Positions 21,815 through 29,594 are shown, counted from the first letter of the stretch. The stretch: 64,000 nt of DNA from Armatimonadota bacterium (GCA_016789105.1 JAEURN010000006.1:62001-126000), one strand, 5' to 3'. A program made the numbers and translations. Notes: generated from the sequence alone by a model not told the origin.

Positions 21815-22776
21815 GCAACGACCTCACAGGCCTCAAACTGTTCGCCGGGAACTCCCATAAGGAGCTCGGCATCAAAGTCGCCGACTACCTGGGCGTGCAC
21901 CTTGGCGGGCTGACATCCACCAAATTCAGCGATGGCGAAATCCGGCTGATGGTGGAAGAAAGCGCCCGGGGCAACGACGTTTTTATCATCCAGCCCACAT
22001 GCGCCCCGGTCAACGATTCGCTGATGGAACTGCTCATCATGCTTGATGCCTTCAGGCGGGCGAGCGCCCGTCGGCTGACGGTCGTGATGCCTTATTACGG
22101 GTACGCCCGCCAAGATAAAAAGGTCAAACCCCGTGAACCGATCACGGCCCGCCTAGTGGCCGACCTCATCGTGACCGCGGGGGCGAACCGGGTCGTGGCT
22201 GTGGATCTCCATGCCGAACAGATCCAAGGTTTCTTCGACGTTCCGGTCGACCACCTCTACGGCGGACCGATCTTGGGCCGGTATTTTCAAGACGAAGGGC
22301 TCTCCGAACAAGACGACATCGTCGTGGTCAGCCCGGATGTCGCCGGGGTGCCCCGGGCGCGCAGCCTGGCCGAAATGCTCAAGGCTCCCATCGCCATCAT
22401 CGCCAAAAGGCGCCCTGAACCCAACAAAGTCGACATCGTCGAAATCATCGGCGATGTCAGCGGCAAACGGTGCATCATGATCGACGACATGATCGACACC
22501 GGCGGGTCGATCATCATGGGGGCCGAACAGCTCCTTAAACGGGGCGCAACCGAAGTCATCGCCTGCTGCACCCACGCCGTTTTCAGCGGAAACGCCAGCC
22601 AGCGGCTGCAAGACAGCATCGTTAGCCGGGTCGTGACTATGGACACCCTGCCCTTGGGGTCGGAAAAGCATTTCCCCAAGCTCTCGGTCCTGCCGAGTGC
22701 CCCGTTGCTGGGCGAAGCGATCCGCAGGATTCACTTGAACGAGTCGATCAGCACCCTGTTCAACGATTGGCGATAA
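21811..22776 (+). CDS. prs: Ribose-phosphate pyrophosphokinase
   Basis: The 321-residue enzyme makes PRPP from ribose 5-phosphate and ATP for nucleotide, His and Trp synthesis. Class I features visible: KLFAGNSHKELG at the start, the VDLHAEQIQGFFDVPVDHLYG flag region, the Mg/pyrophosphate loop and the PRPP motif IMIDDMIDTGGSIIMGAEQL. It is translationally coupled to glmU by an ATGA overlap, a common pairing in bacteria. Length is normal. Only 4 bases separate it from the next gene. Confidence 0.97.
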   Translation: MSNDLTGLKLFAGNSHKELGIKVADYLGVHLGGLTSTKFSDGEIRLMVEESARGNDVFIIQPTCAPVNDSLMELLIMLDAFRRASARRLTVVMPYYGYARQDKKVKPREPITARLVADLIVTAGANRVVAVDLHAEQIQGFFDVPVDHLYGGPILGRYFQDEGLSEQDDIVVVSPDVAGVPRARSLAEMLKAPIAIIAKRRPEPNKVDIVEIIGDVSGKRCIMIDDMIDTGGSIIMGAEQLLKRGATEVIACCTHAVFSGNASQRLQDSIVSRVVTMDTLPLGSEKHFPKLSVLPSAPLLGEAIRRIHLNESISTLFNDWR

Positions 22777-22780
22777 ACCG

Positions 22781-23236
22781 TTGGCAGATCCGCAAGCAGA
22801 GACTCCGGCGATGGCCTGGTCCGTGTCCATCGGCGAAGGCCATCCCCGCAAGAGGGCGGCCTTGGCGGTCGTGACTCTGGCCGCCGGGGTTTTCGGGTTT
22901 GCTTTCCTCGGGATGTGGGGGCTCCTCATCAGCCTTGCCGCCGTGTTCGTGTCAACCGCCGAATATTGGCTGCCAATCCGGTTCCGGTTGGACGAGGCGG
23001 GCGCCGAGTCCAAAATCGGGCTCAGCACAAACTTGCTTCGCTGGGGGGATCTCAAACGTCTGATCCACACAGCCGACGGCGTCAGGCTCTCGCCCCTGCC
23101 ATCGCCGTCGAGGCTTGACGAGTTCCGAGGGGTTTATCTGAGGTTTGCAGGCAATCGGGAGGAAGTATTGGCCAAAATAGCCGAACTAAGCGAACGATAT
23201 GGAAACAGTGTGGATCGAGAAGCTGACGCCGGATGA
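22781..23236 (+). CDS. Membrane protein with bPH-like C-terminal domain
   Basis: The 151-residue reading starts with TTG at 22781, only 4 bases after prs; ATG at 22811 (MAWSVSIGEG) is an alternative. Two close hydrophobic segments (about residues 28-44 and 46-62) form a hairpin into the membrane, then a soluble beta-rich region from FRLDEAGAESKIGLSTNLLRWGDLKRLIHT, whose pattern resembles the bacterial PH-like fold. The last 13 codons overlap the next gene's start. It begins the uncharacterised membrane module that continues to 27204. Confidence 0.7.
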   Translation: MADPQAETPAMAWSVSIGEGHPRKRAALAVVTLAAGVFGFAFLGMWGLLISLAAVFVSTAEYWLPIRFRLDEAGAESKIGLSTNLLRWGDLKRLIHTADGVRLSPLPSPSRLDEFRGVYLRFAGNREEVLAKIAELSERYGNSVDREADAG

Positions 23237-23573
23237 GGAGGAGTACCTGATCGCGCAGTTCGTTTATGAGGTCAAAAGGCGGGGGTTGCAGGTTCCTGCC
23301 ACGTTCGCTATTGAAATGCACCGGCCGTTGGCCGGCCTGGCTGAGACGTTCGGGATCGTGACGGCCCCATTCACCGCGCCGCTGGTCGGACTTGGGAACG
23401 TGCACGGATACAGCCGGATTTTTTCCAACCGCCAGGCGGTCGACCGCATTTTGGCCGCACTCGAAGATCCTTCCGAACCGGTCAAACCGATCCGGCCCGT
23501 AGGGTCAGACATAGAAGGGAACACAGGACAACAAAGAATGGGTAATGACGACGAGGTGGGGCACGGTGCTTGA
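23199..23573 (+). CDS. Small soluble protein of the membrane module
   Basis: The 124-residue product has no signal peptide or membrane segment. Its centre carries FAIEMHRPLAGLAETFGIVTAPFTAPLVGLGNVHGYSRIF in a highly hydrophobic but not transmembrane pattern, then a helical part RQAVDRILAALED. It overlaps the preceding gene by 38 bases and the following one by 29 bases in different frames, so all three are translated from one message. I do not recognise a family; the conserved-looking 'HRPLAG...YSRIFSNR' pattern would be the best search seed. Confidence 0.7.
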   Translation: METVWIEKLTPDEEEYLIAQFVYEVKRRGLQVPATFAIEMHRPLAGLAETFGIVTAPFTAPLVGLGNVHGYSRIFSNRQAVDRILAALEDPSEPVKPIRPVGSDIEGNTGQQRMGNDDEVGHGA

Positions 23574-24543
23574 AGGCGAACAGTATTTAGACACCGGCTG
23601 GGTCAACATCCTGATGACGCTCGTGGTCGTCGGATTCATCCTGTACAACATCTTCCGCGCGGAACGCAAATCAGAAAGCATGTTCATCCGCCGGATTGCC
23701 GGCCTCAACGCCATCGATGACGCCATCGGGCGGGCCACGGAAATGGGACGCCCGGTGCTGATGGTTCCCGGTATCGGTGTCCTGGATGCCATTTCCGTCC
23801 AAGCGGTCAACATCTTCGCCCAAGTCACCAAATCGGCGGCCCAGTTTTCAACCCCGATCCGGCTGTGTTGCGCCAATGCAGCGGTTTACGCCTATGCCCA
23901 AGAGGTGATCCGAGACGTTTACACCCAGCAAGGCATGGGAGACCGGTTCACTCCAGAATCGGTTCAATTCGTTAGCGACCAACAGTTCGCGTTTGCGGCC
24001 GGGGTCAGCGGGATGATCTACCGCGAAAAAGTGGCGGCGACGTTCCTTTTGGGTGCTTTTTATGCCGAATCCCTGATCTTTGCCGAGAGTTCCAACTCCA
24101 TCGGGGCGATTCAAATCGCGGGGTCAACCCAGTCAACCCAGACGCCGTTCTTTATCGCCGCCTGCGACTATGTGTTGATCGGGGACGAGTTTTACGCCGC
24201 TTCGGCCTATCTCACCCGCCAACCGGTGCTCGTCGGTTCCTTGGTCGGCCAAGACTGGACAAAGATCATGATCGCCGGCATGGCACTCTTCGGCACCCTT
24301 GGGCTTTCGTTCCAACTCACGGGGATGACAACCGAACACCGTGACGGCGCCAAGATGGTCTCGGTCAGCGAATCCAGCGAAGGGAAGCGAACCGAAGAAC
24401 GAGTCAAAAAGAGCGACACGGCGATTTTCCGGCTGTTCAACCCCATGGTCACCGAAGAAATGACAGAGAAATACAAGCGGGAATTGACCCCAGAGGCCAA
24501 AAAGAAGAAAGACGAGGAAGCCGCAAAGGGAGGTGGTGAATAA
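23545..24543 (+). CDS. DUF6754-like membrane protein
   Basis: The 332-residue protein has one N-terminal membrane segment (about residues 20-38), a conserved soluble region (about 60-240) with RPVLMVPGIGVLDAISVQAVNIF and AFAAGVSGMIYREKVAATFLLGAFYAESLI, a second membrane segment (about 240-260, MIAGMALFGTLG), and a lysine/glutamate-rich cytosolic tail. This resembles the DUF6754 family of unknown function. It starts inside the previous gene and its stop shares bases with the next start (TAATG). It should be the core component of the module; which face its soluble part occupies is not certain. Confidence 0.8.
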   Translation: MTTRWGTVLEGEQYLDTGWVNILMTLVVVGFILYNIFRAERKSESMFIRRIAGLNAIDDAIGRATEMGRPVLMVPGIGVLDAISVQAVNIFAQVTKSAAQFSTPIRLCCANAAVYAYAQEVIRDVYTQQGMGDRFTPESVQFVSDQQFAFAAGVSGMIYREKVAATFLLGAFYAESLIFAESSNSIGAIQIAGSTQSTQTPFFIAACDYVLIGDEFYAASAYLTRQPVLVGSLVGQDWTKIMIAGMALFGTLGLSFQLTGMTTEHRDGAKMVSVSESSEGKRTEERVKKSDTAIFRLFNPMVTEEMTEKYKRELTPEAKKKKDEEAAKGGGE

Positions 24544-25472
24544 TGCTCCCGCTGCAATCTCTGCTCGCCCAGGCCGTCCAAGAGAATTTCTGGAAATACA
24601 AACCCGGCCCCACATTGGTCATGTGGGTCGTCGTCGGCCTGTTGGCCGGTACGGCCCTGTGTTTCGGGCTGTCCCGTGTTCCAACCAACATGCGGCGGCG
24701 GGTGATCTTCGCCTTCACCTTCCTCGCTGGGCTGCCCTACGTGCTCGTCTACTTGTGGCCAACGCCGATCAAAGCCGATTTTGCCAATGAAGTCCCCCGG
24801 AACGGGGTCGAGCAGTTCGGGTTCTTCCTCAACCAGGCCGTTGACCCAGTTGGGAGCATCACCAACATCCTGCAAGGGTTCCTCCTTGGGGTTGGGTTCT
24901 ACTCACTGGTGTTGATCCACTCGACCAGGGTGAGGCGCAAACAAGAGAACTGGGGTTTTAGCCTGATCCTTTTGCTGAGTTTTGCCGCGATGACCATTGC
25001 TGGCTTCTGGGATTGGCGAACCCGCCAGTTCTTGGATCCCGACGGAAAACTCAACGTCCGCGAAAACTGGGGATTTGTCAACTACGCCCAGGATTTCTTG
25101 TTCGAGGGCCTGTACCAACAAATGGACTCGGCCATGTTCTCCATGATCGCGTTCTATATCCTGTCTGCGGCTTACCGGGCCTTCCGCATCCGCAGCGTCG
25201 AAGCGACCGTCATGATGGCCTCCGCGCTCATCCTGATGATCAACCTCATGGGGGCCGTGACCTACCTGCAAGGGCAAGCCGTGGAGCAACTCGTCATTTC
25301 GAGCGGCAACCCGTTCTGGATGAACTTGAAATGGACCGCGATTGCGGATTGGCTTCGCTCCACGATGCAGATCCCGGCGATCCGGGCCATCGACTTTGGC
25401 GTCTACATCGGCGCCCTCGCCATGGGGCTCCGCCTCTGGCTCGGCCTTGAAAAAGGTGGTGTATCGGCATGA
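24543..25472 (+). CDS. Polytopic membrane protein of the module
   Basis: The 309-residue product has about seven hydrophobic segments (about residues 24-42, 52-70, 100-120, 138-155, 195-212, 218-240 and 285-300), joined by polar loops that are rich in Trp and Arg (NWGFSLILL, FWDWRTRQFLDPDGK). The end of the preceding gene overlaps the start as TAATG and the following gene overlaps by 4 bases (ATGA), giving strict translational coupling. No known transporter or enzyme motif was identified. Confidence 0.78.
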   Translation: MLPLQSLLAQAVQENFWKYKPGPTLVMWVVVGLLAGTALCFGLSRVPTNMRRRVIFAFTFLAGLPYVLVYLWPTPIKADFANEVPRNGVEQFGFFLNQAVDPVGSITNILQGFLLGVGFYSLVLIHSTRVRRKQENWGFSLILLLSFAAMTIAGFWDWRTRQFLDPDGKLNVRENWGFVNYAQDFLFEGLYQQMDSAMFSMIAFYILSAAYRAFRIRSVEATVMMASALILMINLMGAVTYLQGQAVEQLVISSGNPFWMNLKWTAIADWLRSTMQIPAIRAIDFGVYIGALAMGLRLWLGLEKGGVSA

Positions 25473-26425
25473 CAATTTGGGAAAAAATGCAGAAAATCGA
25501 CCGGCGCATCCTGTATGCGATCTTGGTTGTGTTGGTGTGCGGCGGGTTGTTCTTCCCAACAACGATCCCAACGGATCCTGACCCCAGCAGCAAGTCGTTC
25601 TATGAGGCGATGCAGGCGCTGCCAGAAGGAGCCACCGTCATTGTCCAAACCGATTGGACGAACAGCACCCGCGGCGAAAGCATGGGCCACTTTGAAAACC
25701 TGCTGCGCTTGCTGATGGACAAAGACGCGAAGTTCGTGTTCTATTCGGCAGCAGACCCCGCTGCACCGCAGGTCGCCCGGACCGTCCTTGCCCGGATCGT
25801 AGCCGAGCGCAAATCGCAAAACCTCAAGGAATACAAAGTCGGGGAAGACTACATTGACCTCGGGTTCTTCCCGAACGCAGAAGCCACCAACACCACCATG
25901 GGAGCCAACCTCCGGGCCGCTTGGGCTGGCCGGAAATCCAAACTCGCCGGCCAAGGCGATGTGGATATTTGGCAGACGCCGGTTCTGAAAAAGGTCAACA
26001 AAATCGAAGACTGCCAGATGATGGTCGTCGTGACGGCCTCCAGCTCCATCGACGTTGCCGTGCAAAGGCTGGCCAACAAAATCAAGATCACGGCTCTGGT
26101 CACCGGCGTCGTCGGCCCGACCGTCCTGCCGTTCTACCAATCCGGCCAGGTGGCGGGCGTCGGAGTCGGGCTCAAAGGGGTTTACGATGTCGAATACCTG
26201 ATGAAAAACGGCATCAACGATGTCAAGGACAAAGATGGTGAGCGGCCGGTGGTGACCTGGAATAAGCCTGGAACCGTTCCGCACGTGACCGAAGGGACGA
26301 CCCTGGCCCGGGGCCAACAGTATTACGGCACCCTGCATGTGGCCCTCGCGCTGCTCATCCTTGCCGTCATCTTGGGGAACGTCGCCATGTTTGCCGCCCG
26401 CCGCCGCAAAGGAGATTCGGTTTGA
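25469..26425 (+). CDS. Bitopic protein with large extracytoplasmic domain
   Basis: The 318-residue protein has an N-terminal anchor (about residues 12-30, ILYAILVVLVCGGLFF) and a C-terminal anchor (about 290-312, VALALLILAVILGNVAMFAAR), so about 250 residues lie between them on one side of the membrane. That region contains LPEGATVIVQTDWTNSTRGE and KFVFYSAADPAAPQV and looks alpha/beta, with an SSSIDVAVQRLANKIKITALVTGVVGP segment. No family recognised. It is coupled to both neighbours by 4-base overlaps. Confidence 0.78.
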   Translation: MTIWEKMQKIDRRILYAILVVLVCGGLFFPTTIPTDPDPSSKSFYEAMQALPEGATVIVQTDWTNSTRGESMGHFENLLRLLMDKDAKFVFYSAADPAAPQVARTVLARIVAERKSQNLKEYKVGEDYIDLGFFPNAEATNTTMGANLRAAWAGRKSKLAGQGDVDIWQTPVLKKVNKIEDCQMMVVVTASSSIDVAVQRLANKIKITALVTGVVGPTVLPFYQSGQVAGVGVGLKGVYDVEYLMKNGINDVKDKDGERPVVTWNKPGTVPHVTEGTTLARGQQYYGTLHVALALLILAVILGNVAMFAARRRKGDSV

Positions 26426-27204
26426 ACCAGCACTTCTACGACGTCCTGAAAATCAGCTCGGGGGTCATTGCCATGCTGGCCCTCTACAGCATCCTCTACC
26501 GGGAGAACAAGTTCTACCGCCTGTTCGAGCACATCTTCCTTGGATTGGCCGCCGGATACACCATCGTGGCAACCTGGAAAGACACGCTGTATCCCCAATG
26601 GTGGGTCAAGATGATGGGGCAAGAGGCCACCAAAACCGACCCCGCTGTTCCTGGCTATTGGGTTTTTGCGGCGCTCTTGCCGGTTGGCATGCTGGCCTAT
26701 TTGGTCTTCAGCAAAAAACACAACTGGATGAGCAAAATCCCGATCGGCGTCATCCTGGGTCTCTGGTCGGGACAACAGGTGCAGATCTGGTGGCAAACCT
26801 GGGGTCCGCAACTGTTCAGCTCGATGCAGCCCATCATCCCCACCACTTTCCAACCCCTTTCCGTTCCTGCAACGGTCGAAGTGGTCGGGGGCAGAATCCA
26901 ACCGCTTGCCGGGGATGCCCTCACCAACACCCAACAACTCATTAGCAACAACCTGTTTGCCACCCAAGCCCTCACGAACTTCATTTTCGTGGCGACCTTC
27001 TTGTCAGCGTTCAGCTACTTCATCTTCAGCTTTGAGCTCAAGGGGCCGATCCTGACCGGGGTCAACAAGTTTGGGCGGTGGATGCTGATGATCGGGTTCG
27101 GTGCCATCTTCGGCTCAACAGTCATGGCCCGGTTTGCCCTGGTCATCGACCGGATGAGCTACATCGTCAACGAGTGGGCCCAGGTCGTCCTGCGGGGCGG
27201 ATAA
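26422..27204 (+). CDS. Membrane protein ending the module
   Basis: The 260-residue product starts with TTG overlapping the previous stop (TTGA). It has about six hydrophobic segments (about residues 12-28, 35-52, 74-94, 104-124, 180-205 and 220-245) and two polar regions, one with FSSMQPIIPTTFQPLSVPATVEVVGGRIQPL. No motif recognised. It stops 31 bases before the TTG used for recO. Confidence 0.75.
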   Translation: MNQHFYDVLKISSGVIAMLALYSILYRENKFYRLFEHIFLGLAAGYTIVATWKDTLYPQWWVKMMGQEATKTDPAVPGYWVFAALLPVGMLAYLVFSKKHNWMSKIPIGVILGLWSGQQVQIWWQTWGPQLFSSMQPIIPTTFQPLSVPATVEVVGGRIQPLAGDALTNTQQLISNNLFATQALTNFIFVATFLSAFSYFIFSFELKGPILTGVNKFGRWMLMIGFGAIFGSTVMARFALVIDRMSYIVNEWAQVVLRGG

Positions 27205-27959: not shown

Positions 27960-29594
27960 ATGGCGATGAAGACGTCAACAGTGGTTGCCTTGGCAGCCGC
28001 ATTCACAGCCGCTGGCATCCTGGCCGGGTGCGGTACAAGCGGCAAAGCTGGCGGAGGGTTCAGCTCCCGCAATGCGGCCGCAGCCGATAACGTGCTCCGA
28101 TACGCGATCCCCACCAATCCCACGACCCTTGACCCCGCGATCGTTCAAGATGGCGACACCATCGACTTCCTCCAACAGGTTTATGAATCGCTTGTCGGTT
28201 GGAACGAAAACAACGAGGTCGTCGGGCTTGTCGCCGAAAAATGGGATGTTTCGCCAGATGCCAAAGAATTCACGTTTCATTTGAGGCCGGGCGTCAAATT
28301 CCAGAACGGGCGGGAAGTCACCGCAGAAGACTTTAAATGGAGCATCGAACGGGCCTGCAAACCGGCAATGGCTTCCACCACCTGCACCGCTTACTTGGGC
28401 GACGTGGTGGGTGTCAACGAATTCCACGACGGCAAGTCCACCGAAATCCAGGGCATCACGGTGATCGACCCGAAAACGATCAAATTCACGCTCAACCAGT
28501 CCGCCGCCTATTTCTTGGGCAAACTCACCTACCTGGTTTCTGCCGCCCTCCCCAAGGAAAGCGTCCCCGCCGACAAGCAGATCAGCAAAGCCGAGGAAAT
28601 GGTCGGCACCGGCCCGTTCAAGGTCACCAAGTACGAGGACAAGATCTTGGCCGAGCTTGAACCGTTCGATGGGTATTGGGGCGGCAAACCGACCCTCACT
28701 AAAATCGAGCGCCCCATCATCGTCGACGCCCAGCTCCGGTTGACCAAATTCCAGAACGGCGAGACCGACCTGCTGTTGATGCAGCGCCAAGATTTGAAAG
28801 GGGTTGAAAGCGATCCCAAGCTCAAAGACCAAATCGTCTACCGCAACCGGGCGGCGATCTACTACATCGGCATGAGCCAGGTCAATTACAAGCCGTTCCA
28901 AGATAAGCGGGTTCGGCAAGCTTTCGCCATGGCAATCGACCGGCACAAAATCGTTAGCGAACTCTTGGGCGGTGTTTACCAAGAAGCCAAGTGCATCTTG
29001 CCGCCAGGGATCCCTGGCCACCGTGATGATGGCCCAGCCTACGATTACAAGCCCGAAGAGGCGAAGAAACTCTTGGCGGCGGCCGGATTCGCCGGAGGTA
29101 AAGGAATGCCGGAACTTACCATCAATTTCCAAGAAGGCAAACCGGACATCAAGACCGTTGCCGAAGCTGTGGCCGGCATGATCAAGGAAAACCTCGGAGT
29201 CCCCGTCCGGGCCCAGCCGATGGAGTGGGGCAAATACTTGGATGATTACAACAACAAGAAGCTCTTCTTCTACCACATGCGCTGGTCGGCCGACTTTTAC
29301 GACCCCCAGAACTTCTTGACCCACATGCTCACCACCAACGGCCCAGAAAACAAGTTCGGATACAGCAATCCCGCTTATGACGCCTTGTGCCACCAAGCCG
29401 ACACGATGGTGAAGATGGAAGACCGGATCCCCATTTACCAAAAAGCAGAGGACATGGTGCTTCAAGATGCGGCATGGATCCCCATCTACTTCCAACGCGA
29501 TGTCGAGCTTGTCTCGCCGTCCGTCAAAGGGTTGCGGGTCAGCCTAGGCGGCTACTTGCCTCACACCAAAACATCCGTTGAACGAAAGCCGTAA
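27960..29594 (+). CDS. Peptide ABC transporter substrate-binding lipoprotein (OppA family)
   Basis: The 544-residue exported protein has a lipoprotein signal MAMKTSTVVALAAAFTAAGILAGC with the lipobox Leu-Ala-Gly-Cys. The SBP family 5 body shows LRYAIPTNPTTLDPAIVQDGDT, QQVYESLVGWNENNEVVG, AKEFTFHLRPGVKFQNGREVTAEDF and the domain-linking VRQAFAMAIDRHKIVSELLGG. It should bind oligopeptides or similar ligands outside the membrane. ATG at 27960 is preferred over 27951 because the latter is part of the -10-like hexamer. No permease or ATPase is adjacent; an OppF-like ATPase lies 9 kb away at 37095. Confidence 0.94.
   Translation: MAMKTSTVVALAAAFTAAGILAGCGTSGKAGGGFSSRNAAAADNVLRYAIPTNPTTLDPAIVQDGDTIDFLQQVYESLVGWNENNEVVGLVAEKWDVSPDAKEFTFHLRPGVKFQNGREVTAEDFKWSIERACKPAMASTTCTAYLGDVVGVNEFHDGKSTEIQGITVIDPKTIKFTLNQSAAYFLGKLTYLVSAALPKESVPADKQISKAEEMVGTGPFKVTKYEDKILAELEPFDGYWGGKPTLTKIERPIIVDAQLRLTKFQNGETDLLLMQRQDLKGVESDPKLKDQIVYRNRAAIYYIGMSQVNYKPFQDKRVRQAFAMAIDRHKIVSELLGGVYQEAKCILPPGIPGHRDDGPAYDYKPEEAKKLLAAAGFAGGKGMPELTINFQEGKPDIKTVAEAVAGMIKENLGVPVRAQPMEWGKYLDDYNNKKLFFYHMRWSADFYDPQNFLTHMLTTNGPENKFGYSNPAYDALCHQADTMVKMEDRIPIYQKAEDMVLQDAAWIPIYFQRDVELVSPSVKGLRVSLGGYLPHTKTSVERKP

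Follow-up and report, generated by a model that had tools for sequence, protein, structure and literature searches.

Several described protein families come close to parts of the system reported here, which centres on a six-gene membrane module (genes A to F) in a 64,000-nucleotide stretch of an Armatimonadota genome, referred to throughout as the window. The Pfam entry DUF6754 (PF20539) gives no function, no fixed C-D-E-F partners, no A-B and no link to a MutL-type ATPase or to the barrel-sandwich protein that we call H; gene C is a full-length member of this family and has all of these partners. The MutL/GlmL ASKHA ATPases (PF13941) serve as accessory proteins to the B12-dependent mutases that act on glutamate or ornithine. 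The MutL of the window's genome shares with them nearly the whole PF13941 domain and the ATP motifs, but differs in about 115 extra C-terminal residues and in its tie to a membrane operon. RnfC and NqrA resemble the N-terminal part of H (PF13375, E-values of 1e-5 to 0.03), whereas the C-terminal part of H differs, Rnf/Nqr partner subunits are absent and the H of this genome scores below the cut-off. Finally, the epsilon subunit of carbon monoxide dehydrogenase/acetyl-CoA synthase (CODH/ACS), MT0777 and other Rossmann-like proteins give the best fold matches of E and C, yet have no sequence similarity to either protein, and C and E are membrane-anchored at both ends. A search limited to open-access papers yielded no mention of DUF6754, PF13941 or the system, so a description elsewhere may exist. 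A to F, MutL and H very probably constitute one system.

Genes A to F lie between prs (PF13793/PF14572) on the 5' side and recO (PF11967/PF02565) on the 3' side, and the open reading frame (ORF) list and the sequence agree to the base on the six coupled genes reported in the preliminary description. The prs stop is at 22776, with the start of A 4 bases downstream. A and B overlap by 38 bases (23199-23236) and B and C by 29 (23545-23573), and the remaining junctions are TAATG for C/D (24541-24545), ATGA for D/E (25469-25472) and TTGA for E/F (26422-26425). The small proteins A and B had been described with these same overlaps, which hold; A, however, is not a soluble protein, as it carries a hydrophobic hairpin, and B is therefore the sole soluble-looking member. 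The assignment of C to DUF6754 was borne out over its full length (2.1e-88; 296.2 bits against a cut-off of 27), D has the expected seven or so transmembrane segments (TM), and E is bitopic, with about 258 residues (some 250 had been proposed) between anchors at approximately 14-32 and 291-309. For F, presented as a six-helix protein, hydropathy supports four to five helices, with a probable sixth. The module proteins may, as was suggested, form a physical complex made in fixed proportions.

A to F are real genes, and their proteins and order are conserved beyond chance across loci and phyla. C, D, E and F are directly consecutive in 79 of the 84 independent loci with at least 3.2 kb of sequence downstream of C, with median gaps of 5, -3 and 0 bases; the five exceptions include a tandem C and ORFs broken by the mechanical ORF caller. 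Homologues of the genes are thus not scattered. A-B precede C in 41/43 Armatimonadota loci and in 6/43 loci of the second half of our list (L083 onwards, mostly other phyla), A homologues occurring in 55 loci overall. The B homologues share the motif PAI.FLE..KPLSF and adjoin MutL in other phyla. A scan of GTDB genomes for DUF6754 gave at least 574 confirmed stretches, and the phylum labels read from the best 80 were Armatimonadetes, WOR-3/Stahlbacteria, TA06, Poribacteria, Zixibacteria, Coatesbacteria, Fermentibacteria, Aegiribacteria, Latescibacterota, Edwardsbacteria, Riflebacteria and Eisenbacteria. C-D-E-F occurs in Armatimonadota and in about a dozen other phylum-level groups, and a profile search found DUF6754 in 0/14 well-known control genomes. 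The prs-recO setting, previously regarded as ordinary for a core chromosome, is kept in close relatives (Fimbriimonadia-type genomes), while elsewhere the module lies at other sites; because these flanks are common to close relatives only, the unit of conservation is the module and not the region.

The copy number of the membrane genes varies in some loci. C-D-E-F occurs in tandem copies in L098 (up to three), L095, L115, L118 and L124. The membrane unit can thus be amplified, whereas MutL and H are for the most part present as single copies. In WOR-3 loci (L099 7575-15974; also L090, L092, L108 and L116) a C-D-E-F copy is followed by genes for a DUF4388 protein, a pair of small soluble proteins, a pair of small membrane proteins, one MotA/ExbB protein and two proteins of the ExbD type.

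The earlier account was incomplete, as a MutL-type ATPase and H also belong to the system and are encoded elsewhere in the genome. Both are present in one copy, each on a contig other than that of the window (Table 1); MutL was found at 1.4e-127 and H, a conserved barrel-sandwich protein of about 375 amino acids (aa), at 48% identity. Their connection to the module is seen where the genes come together. MutL adjoins B or the end of the C-F operon in Riflebacteria-type (L097, L126, L130), Zixibacteria (L102, L120) and Fermentibacteria-type loci (L096, L127, L128) and in one Armatimonadota family (L045), and in these operon-linked loci it matches PF13941 at 1e-119 to 4e-132 and in most is directly followed by H. 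Deep Armatimonadota (L136, L137) and Fermentibacteria-type loci (L096, L127) have the genes in the order A-B-MutL-H-C-D-E-F, and Riflebacteria in the order C-D-E-F-B-MutL-H. Furthermore, four genomes encode a MutL-H fusion paralogue of 973-1091 aa beside separate MutL and H proteins, a further sign that the two work together. The neighbours of the fusion genes are unrelated, with accD among them in one genome.

The components are also present and lost together. Of 201 genomes of the phylum, 173 have C (DUF6754), 172 have E, 183 have MutL and 182 have H. In the high-quality set (n = 141; completeness of at least 90%, contamination of at most 5%), the 13 genomes that lack C are also the 13 that lack E. 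Ten of them have no H either, whereas all of the other 128 have it (Fisher 5e-13, a value that ignores shared ancestry). The losses, among them f1 g15, f6, f9 g62 and f11 g87, span at least four families, and f1, f9 and f11 also hold genera that retain the system. In other phyla, 22 genomes chosen for having C contain MutL in every case and H in 21. Two genomes from the family of the window's genome (G177 and G181; 1.5 Mb, 97% complete) have lost C, E, MutL and H and give no strong PilM match, a pattern that looks like genome reduction.

Two further ideas were considered. The system is not a marker of the outer membrane: the control protein Omp85 is found in 140/141 high-quality genomes and is kept where the system is lost. 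As to a part in type IV pili, PilM-type matches are mostly kept in genomes that lack C, but the PilM model is uninformative because it also matches in 9/14 control genomes, including B. subtilis.

Table 1. Coordinates of the module genes, their partners and related loci
Feature	Location	Coordinates	Strand	Description
Gene A	window	22781..23236	+	151 aa, TTG start; hydrophobic hairpin at residues 27-66, remainder soluble
Gene B	window	23199..23573	+	124 aa; no clear TM
Gene C	window	23545..24543	+	332 aa; DUF6754 (PF20539); TM1 - Rossmann-like domain - TM2
Gene D	window	24543..25472	+	309 aa; about 7 TM; no known family
Gene E	window	25469..26425	+	318 aa; TM1 - Rossmann-like domain - TM2; no known family
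Gene F	window	26422..27204	+	260 aa, TTG start; 5-6 TM; no known family
Lipoprotein gene	window	27985-29594		oligopeptide-ABC substrate-binding lipoprotein, after recO
MutL	L134	G000:C4:446384-447856		PF13941 ATPase of the window's genome
H	L135	G000:C2:205923-207041		barrel-sandwich protein of the window's genome
MutL-H fusions	L184; L185; L186; L187	3923-6898; 7732-11007; 7803-10724; 5197-8169		Eisenbacteria, Fermentibacteria-type, WOR-3
gcvPB-(A-)B-MutL	L188; L191; L192; L096, L127, L128, L218-L220	5644-9144; 4740-8240; 2488-6009		gcvPB directly upstream
H-regulator	L135 (own genome, G000:C2); L139, L204, L212, L213	6250-8042		OmpR/PhoB-type response regulator after H

The MutL of the window's genome is a member of its family, covering 448/450 positions of PF13941 at 424.8 bits (cut-off 27). 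The ASKHA phosphate-1, phosphate-2 and adenosine motifs are present, and TDCGSTTTKA, DIGGATTDV and GSGGVLSHAP are kept in 59 MutL sequences. Given this membership, MutL-H might act as a chaperone or reactivase of a metabolic enzyme, as GlmL is thought to do, with C-F merely co-inherited. In nine genomes, which come from WOR-3, TA06, Stahlbacteria, Fermentibacteria/Aegiribacteria and Latescibacterota, gcvPB immediately precedes (A-)B-MutL, and this could be read in the same way. However, the gene between gcvPB and MutL is B, a member of the membrane operon, and several lineages have all eight genes in a single operon; their loss, too, is joint. In addition, MutL scores far below the equivalog cut-offs for GlmL (NF040745; 224.2 bits against 475) and Or-4 (211 against 600). 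No glutamate mutase subunits were noticed near MutL in the 16-kb locus L134 or in the other loci read, the rest of the genome being unsearched. On balance, we regard an enzyme-reactivating role as quite improbable.

To gain insight into the membrane part, we turned to structural models of C and E. The model of E reached a predicted local distance difference test (pLDDT) score of 93.3 and a predicted template modelling score of 0.90; that of C has a mean pLDDT of 79.7, with core residues of about 61-170 above 90. The two models are alike, with the arrangement TM, a0-b1-a1-b2-a2-b3-a3-b4-a4-b5-a5-b6-a6, TM, and E has an extra hairpin after a3. VIA-align gave best Z values of 10.0 for C and 8.8 for E, with MT0777 and the CODH epsilon subunit among the top matches of both. 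Foldseek comparisons of E and C with the PDB, and of E with viral models, returned no match with an E-value below 0.001, and single and profile sequence searches of the PDB with C and E gave none. A shared origin of C and E is a suggestion only, since their sequence profiles show no homology; homology between D and F was not significant by profile comparison either.

The two Rossmann-like domains probably face opposite sides of the membrane. Positive charges follow TM1 of C, and in E they lie around the protein on its N- and C-terminal sides, a pattern that predicts a cytosolic domain in C (residues ~54-224) and a periplasmic one in E (~36-250). In distant C proteins the N-terminus is extended, and the extension contains an fn3-like match ahead of TM1, which fits an N-terminus of C outside. 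The conserved residues of C and E are mostly found at strand ends and helix starts. This region is the usual ligand site of Rossmann-like folds, and we infer from the models that each domain holds a ligand in a pocket at the C-terminal strand ends.

Ligand-pocket-like conservation on both sides of the membrane would also suit a system for envelope sensing and signalling, in which E reads a periplasmic ligand, C passes its state to MutL-H and H relays it to a response regulator. Indeed, an OmpR/PhoB-type regulator follows H on the same strand in five Armatimonadota genomes, and in that of the window the two genes overlap by 42 bases. This link was not seen outside Armatimonadota, where the neighbours of H are accA and others, and an ATPase with two polytopic proteins exceeds the needs of a sensor. 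Signalling therefore seems unlikely to us.

The resemblance of H to RnfC raises a different possibility, namely that the system is a relative or analogue of Rnf/Na+-NQR that couples cytosolic chemistry to ion movement. H would then be the RnfC/NqrA-like protein, D and F would correspond to the paired six-helix subunits, and E to the subunit whose domain lies outside the cytoplasm. The inventories do look similar, each comprising two polytopic proteins, a protein with a domain in the periplasm and a barrel-sandwich protein in the cytosol. The H of L130 just exceeds the RnfC_N cut-off (25.7 against 25.6), but those of the window's genome (22.5) and of L045 (14.8) fall below it, and the barrel-sandwich domain is widespread. 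Moreover, none of 33 D and 40 F members matched an Rnf/Nqr family at an E-value of 0.1 (for D, among the best 25 of 31 families), and no iron-sulfur or flavin family exceeded its cut-off among the scanned proteins. PDB sequence searches with H and MutL gave nothing useful. We consider this relationship very unlikely.

Across phyla, the system is surrounded by genes of ordinary metabolism and housekeeping (prs, recO, aroK-aroB, gcvPB in nine genomes, accA in six and plsX in four). This setting, combined with the occurrence of the system in nearly all genomes of the phylum, suggests that its role is constitutive. Six genomes have H-x-accA, four have MutL-plsX and one has the fusion beside accD, which could indicate a machine for envelope assembly or lipid homeostasis whose targets are membrane lipids and which transports no soluble substrate. 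Such neighbours are, however, confined to WOR-3, TA06 and Latescibacterota-type genomes and may simply mark well expressed housekeeping operons, as prs, recO and aroK-aroB would elsewhere; Omp85 is also retained in genomes without the system. A lipid machine of this kind appears rather unlikely. The substrate-binding lipoprotein gene that follows recO in the window is found there in many close relatives, and two Riflebacteria-type loci (L097 and L130) have a similar gene upstream of C.

Our favoured model is that A to F are the membrane part of an eight-component inner-membrane housekeeping system driven by MutL-H, a reading to which we give an even chance of being correct. C-D-E-F would assemble into a complex of the inner membrane, in which the C domain faces the cytosol and the second Rossmann-like domain, that of E, is exposed to the periplasm. 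MutL, with H as adaptor, may dock on the cytosolic domain of C as a cytosolic energy or switch unit, and ATP binding or hydrolysis by MutL would change the state of the membrane complex. Most likely, though with low certainty, the system uses ATP to move a molecule, either small or lipid-linked, across the inner membrane or to hand it over. The earlier proposal of a conserved, undescribed envelope system is supported by the kept gene order and by the absence of matches to known families. Scans of the window's proteins against Pfam, NCBIfam and PHROGs matched only C of the six, and when the individual members of D, E and F were compared with Pfam one at a time, no family recurred consistently. 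No known transporter or secretion component was found in these profile searches or in PDB sequence searches with C and E.

Several observations weigh against this model. A, B, D, E and F match no transporter family above cut-off in Pfam and NCBIfam, which for D, E and F counts against a transport function, and the MutL family is known for accessory roles to enzymes and not for transport. The fold Z values of C and E are at the level of the common Rossmann-like arrangement, and the similarity between their profiles is not significant, although no other pair scored better than C-E and its alignment is in register (P 0.038). Joint inheritance has its exceptions too: three high-quality but fragmented metagenome-assembled genomes (440 to 1060 contigs) have H without C or E, and one WOR-3 genome has C and MutL without H.

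The system may represent an undescribed class of ATP-driven inner-membrane machine, in which an ASKHA MutL and a barrel-sandwich adaptor drive a four-subunit membrane complex with similar Rossmann-like domains on both faces, distinct from ATP-binding cassette (ABC), P-type, V/F-type, Sec and Tol/Ton systems and with a housekeeping envelope role in about a dozen phyla; we put this forward tentatively, as somewhat short of an even chance. Nearly all Armatimonadota (128/141 good genomes), and many genomes of little-studied phyla, devote eight genes to the system. The tie of DUF6754 and four family-less membrane proteins to a recognizable ATPase offers a biochemical handle on them. If MutL does drive the complex, an actin-fold ATPase would join the known motors of membrane machines, and the MutL family would gain a role outside the B12 mutases.

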